Part shown: positions 9,227-25,908 of the stretch, in pieces | Numbering within the stretch: the stretch's first letter is position 1 | Layout of the letters: every line of letters begins with the position of its first letter | From: Microcystis aeruginosa Ma_SC_T_19800800_S464 | GTDB lineage: Bacteria > Cyanobacteriota > Cyanobacteriia > Cyanobacteriales > Microcystaceae | Direction: 5' to 3' | DNA: 49,605 nt | NCBI GenBank assembly: GCA_007095785.1 | Contig: SFBL01000146.1 | Span: 1 to 49,605 of the forward strand | Position numbers and translations under genes: made by a program | Notes under the pieces: generated by a model | What the model was told of the DNA's origin: nothing | Databases searched by the model: none | Seen by the model: only the letters and a program-made list of their open reading frames with translations

Positions 9227-10987
9227 ATGATAACCAAGCTAACCCTGAGAAATTTCAAGGGTATCAAGGAACAAACCTACGAGTTTGCTCTCTTCGATCT
9301 CTTAGTTGGACGGAATAACAGTGGTAAAAGCACCATTTTACAGGCTTTAGCGATCTGGCAGTTCTGTATTGAGGAGTTCCGGCGGGCGGCAAAACGGGGG
9401 GGAAAGACCGGCAAACAAGTTGTCCTTCCCAACTTTACAGCCCTTCCCGTTCCAGAATTTAATCTTTTGTGGCGAGAGAAGACCGAGCGCCACTATCCAA
9501 CAAAAGCAGATGGTTCCAAAAAGCAAGAGTTTATTCTCATTGAAATTGATGTTACTTGGATAGCGGAATCTTCTGGGCCAGAACCACGCTCTTTGGGGGT
9601 TAGACTACGATATAGTTCTCCTCAAACTATCTACGCAATTCCTTCGGAAGGATGGGAACATTTCCGTGAATTAGAAGGAGAGTCAAATCACTCCCCTTCT
9701 CTGTTACCTATTATTGCTTACGTTCCGCCTTTTTCGGGATTAGAACCCAATGAAGAATGGCGTGATGACGGACCGCTGCGAAAACAAGTGGTAAAAGCGC
9801 AGCCCGGAAGTATATTAAGAAATTTACTGCTGCGAGTTTGGCAAGAAAATCGAGATGATTGGAGTGAAATTCAAAAGGTTGTCAAAAACTGGTTTAGCGT
9901 TGATTTAAAAGAACCTCAATACGAACGAGGAGTGGACACCCAGATAATCTGCGAATATAAACAGGGGGGCAAATCCTACGACATTATATCTGCTGGCAGC
10001 GGTTTCCATCAAACCTTAACCTTGTTGGCATTTTTTTATGGTTATAAACCTACTACTATCTTACTGGATGAACCCGATGCTCATCTTCATGTTAACTTGC
10101 AAAGAGAGATTCTAGATTATTTTAAAAATCAAAAAGCGATCGAGAGAAATACTCAATTTCTTATTGCCACCCACGCAGAAGAGTTTATTAGAGGGGTTGA
10201 CGTTCGGCAAATAATCTCATTACTTGATAGAATTCCTAAAAGAGTGGAAGCTACACCAGCGATTTTAACAGCGATGGCCGATGTTTCTAACTTAGAGATA
10301 ACACAGCTTTCGGAATTTAATTATCCCGTTATTTTGTATGTTGAAGGAGAAACAGATGAGCGTCTTTTACGAGGTTTTGCCACTTCTTTAGGAAAGCAGG
10401 ATAACTTAAATAAAGTTTGTTTTCGGGTTATGGGAGGCGGCAATAAGAAGAAAATGAAAGAAGATTCTGATCGTCATTTTGCTGGGATTAAACAAATAAT
10501 TCTATCGGCGAAAAGGTTGGTATTGTTTGATTATGATGATGACGATCAGGCCTGCCACCCAGAAGCAAATGATCCGAAGCAATCATTATATGAATGGCGA
10601 CGAAAAAATATTGAGAATTATTTATTAGTTCCCGATGCTTGGATGAGAGCAGCCCTACAAACCGGCGGTTTTAACGACCTAGATATTTTTTTCGCTCCAG
10701 TTGAAGAATTAATTAGGAATTTTTTTGATAACGAAAATCTTACCCTGCCTCGAAATCAATCTTGGAGAGATGTCAAAGCAAATATTTTTCAAGTTGTGGA
10801 TGGGAAAAAGCTATTGTTTGAAAATAAGGACTCTCTTTTTCAAAGGCTTAAATCTTATCAACTTTCTTTAGCATCTGTTCTATCTTTAGAATTGACCCGT
10901 GAAATCGTCGCCACTAATATGAAATCTGATGAAATTCATGAAGATGTTCATCAATTCTTCGCTAAGTTGGATCAACTTCTGAGTTAA
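9227..10987 (+). CDS. OLD-family protein: AAA ATPase with C-terminal TOPRIM domain
   Basis: A 586-residue protein. The N-terminus MITKLTLRNFKGIKE with Walker A GRNNSGKST (28-36) is the SMC/RecF-like AAA start. Walker B ILLDEPDAHLH lies near 276-286, followed by a FLIATHAEEF motif. The TOPRIM part has YVEGETDERLL near 371 and LVLFDYDDDDQ near 431, supplying the acidic metal-binding residues. This is the layout of OLD (overcoming lysogenization defect) nucleases, several of which act in phage defence. No UvrD-type helicase lies next to it, so it resembles a stand-alone class 1 OLD protein rather than Gabija. It is divergent from groEL2 and ends 9 bp from the convergent channel gene. Nuclease activity is inferred. 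Confidence 0.87.
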   Translation: MITKLTLRNFKGIKEQTYEFALFDLLVGRNNSGKSTILQALAIWQFCIEEFRRAAKRGGKTGKQVVLPNFTALPVPEFNLLWREKTERHYPTKADGSKKQEFILIEIDVTWIAESSGPEPRSLGVRLRYSSPQTIYAIPSEGWEHFRELEGESNHSPSLLPIIAYVPPFSGLEPNEEWRDDGPLRKQVVKAQPGSILRNLLLRVWQENRDDWSEIQKVVKNWFSVDLKEPQYERGVDTQIICEYKQGGKSYDIISAGSGFHQTLTLLAFFYGYKPTTILLDEPDAHLHVNLQREILDYFKNQKAIERNTQFLIATHAEEFIRGVDVRQIISLLDRIPKRVEATPAILTAMADVSNLEITQLSEFNYPVILYVEGETDERLLRGFATSLGKQDNLNKVCFRVMGGGNKKKMKEDSDRHFAGIKQIILSAKRLVLFDYDDDDQACHPEANDPKQSLYEWRRKNIENYLLVPDAWMRAALQTGGFNDLDIFFAPVEELIRNFFDNENLTLPRNQSWRDVKANIFQVVDGKKLLFENKDSLFQRLKSYQLSLASVLSLELTREIVATNMKSDEIHEDVHQFFAKLDQLLS

Positions 10988-13145: not shown

Positions 13146-13278
13146 TTATAACACACCAGCGTTTTTATTGCGTACCCGTTGATACATTTCTTCCATAATT
13201 TAATTGGGAAGCAACGAAGTAATAAACTCCAGCAATATGTTTACAGGGATTTTCCCAATCGGTACAAGAACAATTGGT
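13146..13278 (-). pseudogene. Remnant of a second SWIM zinc-finger gene (internal deletion)
   Basis: The minus strand encodes TNCSCTDWENPCKHIAGVYY, the SWIM motif, nearly identical to residues 129-148 of the intact gene at 15221-16060. It then jumps to MEEMYQRVRNKNAGVL, which matches the intact C-terminus, in a shifted frame. About 330 bp between the two parts are missing, as is everything upstream. DNA identity to 15236-15271 and 15601-15677 is very high, so the duplication is recent or was maintained by gene conversion. The remnant lies on the far side of the AAA/nuclease pair. Confidence 0.85.
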
Positions 13279-13302
13279 TCAGCTTTTTTCTGAGGGAAAA
13301 AC

Positions 13303-13728
13303 CTAAATAGTGATTTCAGCTTTCATCGACTTGACTTTTAAACTAACTTCGGGATGAGACTGCTTTAATTTCGCTTGATAAACCTGAACATTGGTTCCAG
13401 CTTTTGGTACTCTAGAAGCGACAATATAGCATTCTTTTTTAGATTCTTTATGTCTTTTTTGTAAGTAAGAATGATTTAGAGTTGACAATAATTGATCATA
13501 AGCTTGTTCAATATTTTTACCCTTGAGTTCAATATAAAGAGCCAAGCTACAGGGATTATCAATTTCTAACAGCCAGTCGCATCTTTTTCCCTCGATGATT
13601 AAACAATTATCTATTTTTATCTTAGTAATTAATTTCTGACTATTATTATTGACGATGAATTCTTTGCCATTTTCACTAACTTTGACTATTTTATTCTTAT
13701 TGCATTCAGAACAGTGACTAATATCCAT
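13303..13728 (-). CDS. Small PD-(D/E)xK-nuclease-like protein coupled to AAA ATPase
   Basis: A 141-residue protein not recognised as a named family. It starts MDISHCSECNKNK, with a Cys pair at 6 and 9 (half a zinc ribbon; further Cys at 42, 50 and 60). The centre reads CDWLLEI, then LYIELKGKN, so D51, E67 and K69 fit the D-x(n)-ExK core of the restriction-endonuclease fold, followed by a helix AYDQLLSTL. That fold call is inference from motif spacing. Its ATG overlaps the TAA stop of the upstream ATPase gene (TAATG), so translation is coupled. The pair resembles two-gene ATPase-nuclease defence modules. It is AT-rich compared with the flanking genes. Confidence 0.7.
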   Translation of the reverse strand: MDISHCSECNKNKIVKVSENGKEFIVNNNSQKLITKIKIDNCLIIEGKRCDWLLEIDNPCSLALYIELKGKNIEQAYDQLLSTLNHSYLQKRHKESKKECYIVASRVPKAGTNVQVYQAKLKQSHPEVSLKVKSMKAEITI

Positions 13729-15002
13729 TATTGTTGAGCCTTTCTTTCTAAGATTTCTTCAAACTCTTGACTAAGTTCATCGGAGACAGCATCGAGGTTA
13801 TTGATACCAATCAAGTTCACCTCTGTATCTAAGATACTTTGAGTTTGTCCGTTACTAATTGTGTAAGCTGACACATCTTGAAATTGAATAGTATTTTTAT
13901 AACCTAAAGATTTTTCCGCTTTGACAGGCTCAACGTTAGCCGCCATGATTTTATTATTCAAAGCTGTGAGAATGTAGGGACTATGGGTAGTGAGAAAAAA
14001 ACGACAATTTTTATTAGCATAAAGTAGGGTAAATAGTTCTACCATATCTCTTTGAGCGGAGGGAAAAAGATGGGTTTCAGGTTCCTCAATAAAGAATTGG
14101 TTAGATTCGGAATCAGGAAAAAACGAGAAAACTAAGAGAATTAATAACATTGGTAAGGCTTCTTGCTGTCCGCTTGAAGCATCAATTAAGTTAATCTTTC
14201 TCCCATCGGCATGATAAAGCCAATCTTGATCTTTCTCGCGCGCATAGCTGCCTGATAGAATCTTTTCGCTAATTAATTTAATTTGATCATAAAGTTTTTT
14301 ATCATCTTTTTTATCTTGGAATAAACTTTCTGATTCATTAATTATTCTGTATAGGCGTTGAGCATTTTCATAATTAGAGCCAAAGTTAATAATCAGAGGA
14401 TCAAGATCAAAATTATTAGCTAAAAAGGCAAAAATATTATTGGTAAAGTATTTAACAAAAAGAGTACGACTATCTGGAATAAATAAAATCTTTGTAGAAA
14501 AAAATTTTTCATTGCCTTGAAAAAAATCAGCAATATTTCTGGACACACAATCATTCATATCTGAATAAATATCTTGAGTGACTATATTGTTATTGCTCTT
14601 GGCAATTTTACTCACTTGTCTAATTGTTGTATTGTAAAACTTTTTAAAATTATCTGAATAGGTAAATCGTAGTTTAAAATAGCCAGATTTGTCCTTATAT
14701 CTTTCAATCAAAAAGTTAATGTGATCCAAACGATAAACTATTTTAAATACTTGCTCTTTCCATGCGTATTTAGGAAATAATTCCTCAAATCGCTTCTGTA
14801 TGTGCCTTTTGAGTTCTTGCTGATCTTGAAGATTAGTGACTAATAATTTAACTTGATAAAACAAAAATGTTTCAAATAAAAAAACTAATTTAGCAATAAT
14901 ACTTTTACCAGTGGACTGTTCACCGATGATAACATTAATTTTTTTAATCTCTATTTCCGCATACTTAATAATCAGAAAATTTTCAATAATTAAGGATTCC
15001 AT
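13728..15002 (-). CDS. AAA family ATPase (AAA_15/AAA_21-like, first gene of a two-gene module)
   Basis: A 424-residue protein beginning MESLIIENFLIIKYAEIEIK, the typical RecF/SMC-like start. Walker A is GEQSTGKS (27-34), an ABC-type signature-like DASSGQQEA lies near 275-283, Walker B is QFFIEEPETHLFP (about 302-314), and a switch His is in LTTHSPYIL (about 336-344). There is no TOPRIM or HNH domain; the nuclease function would come from the coupled downstream gene. Residues 55-250 are helical and divergent with no motif I recognise. Ribosome-binding site GAGAGA precedes the ATG. Codon use and AT-richness differ from the housekeeping neighbours, which suggests transfer. Septu (PtuA) and PARIS (AriA) ATPases are functional analogues; neither can be assigned. 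Confidence 0.8.
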   Translation of the reverse strand: MESLIIENFLIIKYAEIEIKKINVIIGEQSTGKSIIAKLVFLFETFLFYQVKLLVTNLQDQQELKRHIQKRFEELFPKYAWKEQVFKIVYRLDHINFLIERYKDKSGYFKLRFTYSDNFKKFYNTTIRQVSKIAKSNNNIVTQDIYSDMNDCVSRNIADFFQGNEKFFSTKILFIPDSRTLFVKYFTNNIFAFLANNFDLDPLIINFGSNYENAQRLYRIINESESLFQDKKDDKKLYDQIKLISEKILSGSYAREKDQDWLYHADGRKINLIDASSGQQEALPMLLILLVFSFFPDSESNQFFIEEPETHLFPSAQRDMVELFTLLYANKNCRFFLTTHSPYILTALNNKIMAANVEPVKAEKSLGYKNTIQFQDVSAYTISNGQTQSILDTEVNLIGINNLDAVSDELSQEFEEILERKAQQ

Positions 15003-15047
15003 TGTATCTCTCTTATGTCCAGTCTCATAACAATACTAGCAGGTTAG

Positions 15048-15099
15048 GGGTAGATTTTCAATTACTGTCAGTTGTTGACCTGTTTATTCTAATCTACCC
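15048..15099. repeat. 9-bp inverted repeat upstream of the AAA/nuclease pair
   Basis: GGGTAGATT at 15048-15056 and AATCTACCC at 15091-15099 are perfect inverted arms 34 bp apart, 46 bp before the ATPase start. The position suits a regulatory site, a long hairpin or an element end. There is no direct evidence for any of these. Confidence 0.45.
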
Positions 15100-15142
15100 T
15101 CCTATGGATAGATACCTAAGTCAAAAAGTCAGCAATTTAGCT

Positions 15143-15203
15143 ACAGCGTTTCTCATCAAGATAAAGTGTAAGCTAATTTGGCATCGGGACTGACTCCCCA
15201 AAG
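15143..15203. repeat. Dispersed repeat B, left-end copy
   Basis: The segment starting ACAGCGTTTCTCATCAAGAT and ending ACTGACTCCCCAAA matches the left part of the repeat at 19375-19478 and the complement of 42480-42582. It sits between the ATPase gene and the intact SWIM gene. Confidence 0.7.
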
Positions 15204-15220
15204 GGAAAACTTATATTTTT

Positions 15221-16060
15221 TTAAAGTATCCCTGCATTTTTATTGCGTACCCGTTGATACATTTCTTCCATTACTTCGATAAAGGAAGTATCCTTATCCC
15301 AAAATGCAGGATAATCACCAGCTTTTTTAATGACAATTGCGGGAATAGTTGCGGATTTAACTAACTGAGGATTTTCTGGTAAACGGTGATGGGAGTGCCA
15401 AAATTCTTTGAGATCAATTGTTTCTGCTGCTGGTATAGTTTCAGGTTTAGTGTGATAGGAGTTAACGGGGTTAAGAGGAATTTTTTCCTCTTGGATGGAG
15501 GAGGAAAGCAGCTTACCGAGGGGAGTTTTTGCTAACTCTTGCAGTAATTTTTGACGAGAGATACCCCGTAATTCAAATAAGAGGAAAGGATCCTGATCTA
15601 ATTGGGAAGCAACGAGATAATAAACTCCAGCAATATGTTTACAGGGATTTTCCCAATCGGGACAGGAACAATTGGTGATAAAATCCTTTTGACTGTGGGG
15701 TAATAAGTGCAGATTCAGATCGCTAAATGCTTCATCAATATTATCGGGAACTTCTTTGAGCAGCAGTTTAGAGATCATACTCGCTCTTGAACCAAGATTA
15801 TATAAAGCTTGTGACCACTCTGCTTTAGTAATTGGTTTAATCTCAATACTCACGCTATACAAAGGTTCTTTGTAAACTCCAAAGTAGGGATTAATGGAAC
15901 CTCGCACCTGAGCAGTAATTAAATTACCGTCAATTGTGTAATTCTTGACTTTATCATTTTTAGCGTAGGAACGTCCTCGACTCAAGCGCGCTGAGTCGGT
16001 AAATTCTTCTAATGCTTCTATAAAGCGTTGTCCCCACCAAGTTTTACTAAATTTATTCAT
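15221..16060 (-). CDS. SWIM zinc-finger protein (partner of SNF2 helicase)
   Basis: A 279-residue protein. The SWIM motif is CSCPDWENPCKH (131-142), of the form CxCx(n)CxH, which binds zinc and mediates DNA or protein contacts. The N-terminus FSKTWWGQRFIEALEEFTDSA is typical of this bacterial family encoded beside SNF2 helicases. It starts 14 bp after the SNF2 gene stop on the same strand, so the two are almost certainly co-transcribed and act together in chromatin-like remodelling or repair (inference). A decayed duplicate of its SWIM motif and C-terminus occurs at 13146-13278. Confidence 0.9.
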   Translation of the reverse strand: MNKFSKTWWGQRFIEALEEFTDSARLSRGRSYAKNDKVKNYTIDGNLITAQVRGSINPYFGVYKEPLYSVSIEIKPITKAEWSQALYNLGSRASMISKLLLKEVPDNIDEAFSDLNLHLLPHSQKDFITNCSCPDWENPCKHIAGVYYLVASQLDQDPFLLFELRGISRQKLLQELAKTPLGKLLSSSIQEEKIPLNPVNSYHTKPETIPAAETIDLKEFWHSHHRLPENPQLVKSATIPAIVIKKAGDYPAFWDKDTSFIEVMEEMYQRVRNKNAGIL

Positions 16061-24366: not shown

Positions 24367-24478
24367 TGGAATTAAATATAAGATGAACGTAGGTTGGGTT
24401 GAAGCATGAAACCCAACGCCCGCTCATGTTACGAAGTGCGCTAACCCATCCTACAAATAATTGTGCCTCCCTACTTAT
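24366..24478. repeat. Dispersed repeat A, full copy
   Basis: Nearly identical over its length to 44649-44760. It contains complementary segments GTTGGGTT/AACCCAAC and GTAGGTTGGGTT/AACCCATCCTAC, so it can fold into a branched hairpin typical of small palindromic elements. Its end supplies the last codons and the stop of the Uma2 gene at 24471. Confidence 0.8.
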
Positions 24479-25112
24479 AAAAATCTTCGAGATGTTGTTT
24501 TAGTTGACGAATTGCCATACTACTATTGCGATTGTCGGCAATTTCTCCACAGAAAGAAACTAAATTTTGTAGGTTAAAGTTAGGAAAATATTGACTTTGA
24601 TGGCGCAGGATATACTCTTGATTATCTAGCCAATAAATATAGAGATTTTTCTGACGATACAACCAAATTTCAGGCACTTTATAAGGCAGATAATCATCCA
24701 CATTCGAGTAACTGGTGACATCAATTTCTAATACTAAATCGGGGGGAGGATCATTTACCCAGTCAATTCTGGCTTTCCCTGCTATAGCTGGCCAATGGTC
24801 AATATAAAAACTATAATCTGGTTCAATACCACTTGTTTCTGGTAATTCCATAGTTACGGGAGTAAAAGCCTCGTACTCACGCCCCAGATAATCCAATAAG
24901 GTGGTGATGATATTAGCAATTAAATGGGCATCACGTCCATGCTTGGGAAGTGGAGACATAAGCAAGACTTCTCCATTGTGATATTTGATTTTAGGTCGAG
25001 AATTGTCGCCCCTTTGCCGAGACAAAGTTTGATAATCTAGCCAAGTGGCAGGTAATCTCACTAAGGATCCCGCTGGTAGCTCGATTTTATCTGGTGAAAC
25101 TAAGGCAAACAT
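24471..25112 (-). CDS. Uma2 family endonuclease (DUF820)
   Basis: A 213-residue restriction-endonuclease-fold protein of the family that is hugely expanded in cyanobacteria. The motifs are YHNGEVLLMSPLPKHGR, GIEPDYSFY (acidic residue), DLVLEIDVTS (the D/ExV core) and KVPEIWLYRQKNLYIYWL. The biological role is unknown; family members are linked to mobile DNA and defence. The last residues YK and the stop lie inside repeat A, so the C-terminus was probably altered by the repeat. It is divergent from another Uma2 gene. Confidence 0.92.
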   Translation of the reverse strand: MFALVSPDKIELPAGSLVRLPATWLDYQTLSRQRGDNSRPKIKYHNGEVLLMSPLPKHGRDAHLIANIITTLLDYLGREYEAFTPVTMELPETSGIEPDYSFYIDHWPAIAGKARIDWVNDPPPDLVLEIDVTSYSNVDDYLPYKVPEIWLYRQKNLYIYWLDNQEYILRHQSQYFPNFNLQNLVSFCGEIADNRNSSMAIRQLKQHLEDFYK

Positions 25113-25224: not shown

Positions 25225-25908
25225 ATGCTATCTACTTCGATAATTTCCTCCCATATTATTCCTCCTCTCGAAAATGGCGATAGATTAACTCGTCCCGAAT
25301 TCGAGCGCCGTTATCAAGCAATGACACAGCTAAAAAAAGCTGAATTAATCGCAGGAGTTGTTTATATGGCATCCCCCGTCCGCATCAAAAATCATGGCAA
25401 TCCTCACGCTCGTATTATCACTTGGTTAGGATACTATTGGTACGTTACACCAGGGGTAGAATTAGCAGATAATACTACTGTGCGACTGGATGGGGATAAT
25501 GAACCACAACCAGATGCTTTATTAAGAATAGAAACCGGTGGACAATCAAGCATTAGTGAAGATGGTTATCTGGAAGGTGCGCCGGAATTAATCGTGGAAA
25601 TTGCCGCTTCTACCGCTTCCTACGATTTACACGAAAAACTCAAAGTTTATCGTCGCCATGGAGTGCAAGAGTATATTATCTGGCGAGTAGATGACCAAGA
25701 ATTGGATTGGTTTCGCTTAACTGATGGGGAATATTTGCCCCTAGAATCAAATCAAGATAAGATATTTTGCTCCCAAGTCTTTCCTGGATTATGGCTGGAT
25801 AAAAATGCTTTATTATCGGGGAATTTAGCTGCAGTTTTGGCAATATTACAGCAAGGAATAGCTAGTGAAGAACACCAAGATTTTTGTCAAACTTTGGCTA
25901 ATAAATAG
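25225..25908 (+). CDS. Uma2 family endonuclease (DUF820)
   Basis: A 227-residue Uma2 protein of a different subgroup from its divergent neighbour. The motifs are AELIAGVVYMASPVRIKNHG, QPDALLRI, APELIVEIAAS, LHEKLKVYRRHGVQEYIIWR. It continues with a C-terminal FPGLWLDKNALL segment as in full-length members. The TAG stop coincides with the first bases of the MITE-like element that starts at 25907. Confidence 0.93.
   Translation: MLSTSIISSHIIPPLENGDRLTRPEFERRYQAMTQLKKAELIAGVVYMASPVRIKNHGNPHARIITWLGYYWYVTPGVELADNTTVRLDGDNEPQPDALLRIETGGQSSISEDGYLEGAPELIVEIAASTASYDLHEKLKVYRRHGVQEYIIWRVDDQELDWFRLTDGEYLPLESNQDKIFCSQVFPGLWLDKNALLSGNLAAVLAILQQGIASEEHQDFCQTLANK

Follow-up and report, generated by a model that had tools for sequence, protein, structure and literature searches.

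In a stretch of 49,605 nucleotides from Microcystis aeruginosa Ma_SC_T_19800800_S464 (assembly GCA_007095785.1, contig SFBL01000146.1; the whole stretch analysed is called the window), two overlapping genes, A and B, encode an ATP-binding cassette (ABC) ATPase of the OLD type and a small PD-(D/E)xK-like protein. Rather than being a new kind of system, the pair belongs, as a diverged and accessory member, with the systems that join an ATPase to a restriction endonuclease (REase)-like protein. The genes and residues concerned are as follows.

13728-15002, minus strand: gene A, first of the pair, encoding a 424-residue OLD/AAA_15-type ABC ATPase (open reading frame, ORF; Pfam AAA_15, 9e-25); key residues, by position, K33 (Walker A), R179, E306/E307 (Walker B) and H340 (H-loop)
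13303-13728, minus strand: gene B, encoding a 141-residue (16.1 kDa) PD-(D/E)xK-like protein with D40, C50, D51, E67, K69 and Q79 (ORF, PADLOC match, conservation and structural model)
13728, minus strand: the single base common to the stop codon of A and the start codon of B (TAATG; ORF coordinates)

On the minus strand the joint reads AATAATGG, with one base belonging both to the TAA stop of A and to the ATG start of B. An earlier note, made from the letters of this DNA, had described two AT-rich genes overlapping in this way, and both points were confirmed; the G+C content of the pair is 30.6%, against 41.5% for the whole window. The closest named relatives of B are Microcystis proteins of 96% and 95% identity.

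Protein A carries GEQSTGKS (starting at residue 27), SSGQQE (276), FFIEEPE (303) and TTHSPY (338), which we take to be the Walker A, signature, Walker B and H-loop motifs respectively. The first and third of these had been read correctly in the earlier note, and its statement that the large protein lacks a nuclease domain agrees with Pfam, where all matches of A are to ATPase families. K33 was kept in all 46 ATPase rows reaching that position (52 rows aligned), and R179, E306, E307 and H340 were unchanged across 18 aligned ATPases. When the A-family profile was compared with sequences of solved structures in the PDB, the nearest were retron Ec78 PtuA (7.3e-17), an OLD-family protein (3.5e-12) and PtuA 8ee4 (4.1e-8).

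Conservation in B was counted over 49 relatives, whose retrieval was independent of the PD-(D/E)xK motif. C50, E67, K69 and Q79 were each present in 49/49, D40 in 48 and D51 in 47, and the D-x(n)-(D/E)-x-K motif of the superfamily is thus kept across the family. Since the relatives were retrieved without that motif, the pattern is more than a chance resemblance, and D51, E67 and K69 sit where the earlier note had placed them. The 'Cys pair' of the same note, C6 and C9, was not borne out: C6 is found in 43/49 and C9 is Cys in only 4/49, the invariant cysteine being C50. Pfam A2L_zn_ribbon scored 15.8 bits, below its cut-off of 22.9, and a zinc ribbon at C6/C9 was dropped for the same lack of conservation at C9; a match to Cas9_PI (Pfam, 19.3 bits; cut-off 25) was dismissed as chance. 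In two copies of the PDC-M29 type described below, D51 is replaced by E or G (L015, 1495-2001; L017, 1495-2004), and these variants may be inactive.

The AlphaFold2 model of B is confident, with a predicted local distance difference test score (pLDDT) of 93. Its fold neighbours include entries for Can2, Card1, NucS/EndoMS, FokI, PaqCI, EcoT38I and Mus81, which we take to be PD-(D/E)xK enzymes. Although such nucleases are frequent among the neighbours, every match was non-significant and unrelated GTPases scored alike. The earlier note had named a match of B to a non-nuclease fold as a refutation; no clear match of that sort appeared, but neither did a significant match of any sort, and GTPases score near the nucleases. 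Searching BFVD with B gave nothing at E 0.001 or better; PDB sequence searches with the B profile gave nothing up to E 1, and otherwise one unrelated match at E 1.9. B lies below every Pfam and NCBIfam cut-off. In PADLOC it matched PDC-M29B at 9.8e-9 across residues 25-124, and no other model up to E 1.

Pairing of the two genes was then examined in other genomes. B is present in 10 of the 59 genomes searched (the source genome counted), and in 4/12 within the genus. With the PDC-M29B model, whose reach is wider, there were matches in 27/386 genomes of the phylum, at least one of which (G104) has its match solely in another protein, one with a PDDEXK_9-like end; the B-family profile matched in 31/395 genomes of Bacteroidota, the phylum of Chitinophaga sp. 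YR627. A scan of the genome contigs placed an A-family sequence directly upstream of B in 38/38 loci. It was full length in 30, cut by the contig end in four (L046, L057, L064, L067), divided into two ORFs in three (L051, L055, L061) and a fragment in L044. The same arrangement was seen in 21/21 Bacteroidota loci, with A split in one; these are mostly the best-scoring among 36 places listed, and L150 among them coincides with L054 of the 38-locus scan. Among the loci retrieved first, a small ORF lies at most 45 nucleotides downstream of the ATPase in 34 of the 35 ATPase matches, three of the 34 rows being second reads of a place. Loci retrieved by the B and PDC-M29B models include four places without A: a remnant (L022/L040, one place), a shortened copy (L030), one of 101 amino acids (L035) and a PDDEXK_9-like protein (L037); this count leaves out 9 further PDC-M29B places. 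Two loci came from a viral collection; L149 has the pair, and in the second B begins at the contig end.

Retrieval by A gave a corresponding picture. Thirty Microcystis loci are listed, a few of them shortened by contig ends. B accompanies every one of the seven whose score to the A family is better than 1e-100, and is found in 0/22 of the loci with weaker ATPases and in 0/1 without a scored ATPase. For 52 non-identical pairs, the A and B distance matrices correlated at 0.96, against 0.15 or less in 1000 label shuffles; because shared ancestry alone contributes to such a value, it is weak evidence of interaction. Co-occurrence of the two genes, which the earlier note had proposed to check, thus holds in both scans, and the ATPase with its PD-(D/E)xK-like partner is well supported as a conserved operon.

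In Microcystis the pair is accessory, and comparison of genomes defined the module and its flanks.

13279-15227 (approximate): inserted module, lacking in six Microcystis genomes where the flanks are present (genome comparison)
13156-13278, minus strand: remnant of a duplicated 3' portion of the SWIM gene, reduced to the blocks 13156-13196 and 13198-13278, between which about 320 bases are lost (repeats; empty-site comparison)
15221-16060, minus strand: complete SWIM zinc-finger gene (Pfam SWIM, 4.1e-5), a flank partly duplicated at the insertion and lying outside the module (genome comparison)

The module occupies one site in 4 of the 12 Microcystis genomes (the source genome, G001, G003 and G005). 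In six (G004, G006, G008, G009, G010, G011) the site is empty and a TrkA-like flank adjoins the SWIM gene; G002 and G007 had no flank match and are uninformative. As six genomes have the SWIM gene beside the TrkA-like gene and no module there, the SWIM gene lies outside the system, and the SNF2 and SWIM neighbours were dropped as components. Genomes with the module carry the 3' part of the SWIM gene on both sides of it, one copy complete and the other reduced to the two-block remnant, with an identical joint in all four. This fits gain of the module by recombination or integration beside the SWIM gene, one duplicated copy decaying later. No integrase was found among the ORFs of the insert.

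The pair is related in sequence to the PADLOC candidate PDC-M29. Gene order is the same, B matches its model as given above, and comparison of the two group profiles gave E 1.2e-7, from which the groups are judged homologous. A further group, of proteins of about 200 amino acids, is likewise homologous to that of the window (profile comparison, E 2.7e-6), and G003 carries members of all three. The window pair has nevertheless diverged. A clear PDC-M29 pair, L011, scores 1.5e-74 for B and 5.3e-193 for A, whereas A of the window scores 2.1e-20 with PDC-M29A and better, 1e-28, with AriA; its B is also shorter, 141 against about 168 amino acids. Pairs with a good fit to these models occur in Microcystis (L011) and Bacteroidota (L153). 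A literature search for the name PDC-M29 found no paper, and neither did searches for Microcystis phage defence with PADLOC or for ABC ATPase with restriction endonuclease-like, Septu or PARIS. The excerpt of PMC11811056 drawn on here presents the PDC set as unpublished candidates.

Membership in other known systems was considered. PD-T4-4, whose loci are on enterobacterial plasmids, also has an ATPase followed by a protein with a CD...DxK...Q pattern. That partner is about 210 amino acids long, is missed by the hidden Markov model (HMM) of the B family and gave only a weak profile comparison with B (probability 2.4%). Membership was rejected: B has no PD-T4-4_B match up to E 1, against 3.1e-108 for a plasmid PD-T4-4_B with its own models. 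The ATPase pairs on enterobacterial plasmids are L171, L172 and L173, of which L171 matches PD-T4-4 in PADLOC; its partner protein shares 80% identity with the partner in L172 and 79% with that in L173, and the three have the CD...DxK...Q pattern without HMM similarity to B. AriB of PARIS is a TOPRIM protein. PARIS was set aside, B having no AriB match up to E 1 in PADLOC, a library whose AriB model content is unchecked. Septu is related through its ATPase, the PtuA entries (that of retron Ec78 included) being the nearest solved sequences to the A-family profile. Its partner, however, is an HNH nuclease, while the invariant residues of B are D, C, E, K and Q, with no His/Asn set; as B lacks HNH partner features and has only PDC-M29B as a PADLOC match up to E 1, Septu membership was also rejected. 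According to the excerpt of PMC13096335, Septu of an Escherichia coli strain requires both Walker motifs and the HNH motif, and cuts tRNA-Tyr.

The closest studied layout is that of WonAB. According to the excerpted text of PMC12137116, it comes from the Vibrio cholerae WASA-1 prophage, where an operon of two genes encodes an ABC ATPase of the OLD type together with a 16.1-kDa protein that is PD-(D/E)xK-like. Protection is lost in WonA K34A, R182A, E300A and H333A and in WonB K71A; excess WonB is toxic only with active WonA, genomic DNA remains intact and the evidence points to a stop in translation (same excerpt, PMC12137116). WonB is harmless without the ATPase, and simple sequestration is taken by the authors as ruled out (PMC12137116, as excerpted). 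The 'OLD-ABC ATPase + Novel REase' operon described by Krishnan et al. (2020) is named there as a close relative, and PD-T4-4 as similar; an excerpt of PMC12409358 restates this.

The Microcystis pair has the same two kinds of protein, and B, at 16.12 kDa, is of the size of WonB. WonA K34, R182, E300 and H333 would correspond to K33, R179, E307 and H340 of A by motif and position, without direct alignment, and WonB K71 to the invariant K69 of B by position only. The E-H spacing is 33 in both ATPases if E307 is taken and not E306; K-R is 148 in WonA against 146 in A, and R-E is 118 against 128 (E300/E307), a 10-residue difference in one interval. WonAB comes from a V. cholerae prophage and its activity is published, whereas the A/B group comes from Cyanobacteria and Bacteroidota and is known from sequence; the likeness between them rests on layout, size and position. 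The proposal of the earlier note, an undescribed ATPase-activated nuclease with a partner outside the named families, thus stands for the operon of an ATPase and a PD-(D/E)xK-like protein but not for its novelty, the partner matching PDC-M29B and WonAB being published.

Considering these data together, we find it probable that the two genes form a mobile module for abortive infection that works like WonAB, within or beside the 'OLD-ABC ATPase + Novel REase' class, with host RNA as the guessed substrate of B. Confidence is held at this level because the residue match to WonAB depends in part on the choice between E306 and E307. A, an ABC ATPase by sequence family, would dimerise on ATP and serve as sensor and gate. 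B would be a small metal-dependent nuclease with D51, E67 and K69 as its catalytic core, Q79 coming after it and C50 and D40 in support. In the putative complex, A would restrain or position B, and infection would be the trigger that activates it. Our best guess, drawn from the analogy to WonAB and Septu, is that B would cut tRNA or rRNA of the host, so that translation would halt before phage assembly.

PD-(D/E)xK enzymes are mostly DNases, and DNA is the main alternative substrate of B. The same pair could then act as a restriction-type or suicide DNase on phage or host DNA, rather than as a translation-stopping RNase. Several DNA endonucleases in the fold list of B favour this, as does a weak match (5.3e-4) of the PDC-M29B profile to a protein with a PDDEXK_9 Pfam match, itself below the cut-off; yet WonAB spares genomic DNA and stops translation (PMC12137116, as excerpted), and Septu, which joins a related ATPase to an HNH partner, cuts tRNA-Tyr (PMC13096335, as excerpted). 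We regard a DNase as possible but doubtful. A bolder form of the RNase proposal appears somewhat speculative and on the whole unlikely: the group would be a separate widespread branch of ATPase-gated PD-(D/E)xK effectors in Cyanobacteria and Bacteroidota, in which the invariant C50 beside catalytic D51, in most cases together with C6 and C42, would bring metal or redox control to a nuclease cutting a specific host RNA, by a mechanism distinct from that of WonAB.

A toxin-antitoxin or element-stabilising pair, with A neutralising B and phage defence secondary or absent, would account for the overlapping genes, the accessory insertion, the small putative nuclease and the varied neighbours of the relatives. 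WonB, however, is not toxic without its ATPase (PMC12137116, as excerpted). The ATPase gene also comes first and no known antitoxin family was matched in Pfam, PADLOC or NCBIfam, which makes this explanation rather improbable. Rpb5 has a restriction-enzyme-like scaffold, and a non-nuclease regulatory or nucleic-acid-binding role for B on such a scaffold, to which the RNA polymerase chains and Rpb5-named viral proteins among the fold neighbours and the lack of a significant fold match could point, is very unlikely given that E67, K69, Q79 and D51 are conserved more than expected of a scaffold without catalysis.

Neighbours of the pair vary at other loci. For these, 98 proteins (131-999 amino acids, 21 loci) were scanned out of 194 collected. 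At 1e-10 in PADLOC, the matches listed (25 of 135 families) include five mad3-like, four mad2-like and two type II methyltransferases; among the Pfam matches listed (25 of 136) the families are mostly metabolic or regulatory. As the scan had no control set, the defence-island argument was dropped, and neither enrichment nor its lack is claimed. One member pair, on a plasmid of Bacteroides finegoldii (L174, 1848-3411), lies amid genes for glycosyltransferase and O-antigen ligase. Within the window, a second ABC-type ATPase gene near the module (9227-10987; 586 amino acids, AAA_21/AAA_15) has NsnB as its best PADLOC match (1.5e-24), followed by AriA, AbiLi and PtuA, and is possibly an OLD-like single-gene system. 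Two divergently oriented genes of the Uma2 family (putative restriction endonucleases) are found at 24471-25112 and 25225-25908, about 110 bases apart.

The abortive-infection module proposed here would extend the WonAB-type layout of ATPase and nuclease to Cyanobacteria and Bacteroidota, where natural copies are many and divergent. It comes with a short list of testable residues and a defined insertion site in Microcystis for which natural plus and minus strains exist. If active, the pair would give a bloom-forming cyanobacterium a defence system and link the homologous PDC-M29 group to a class of studied mechanism.
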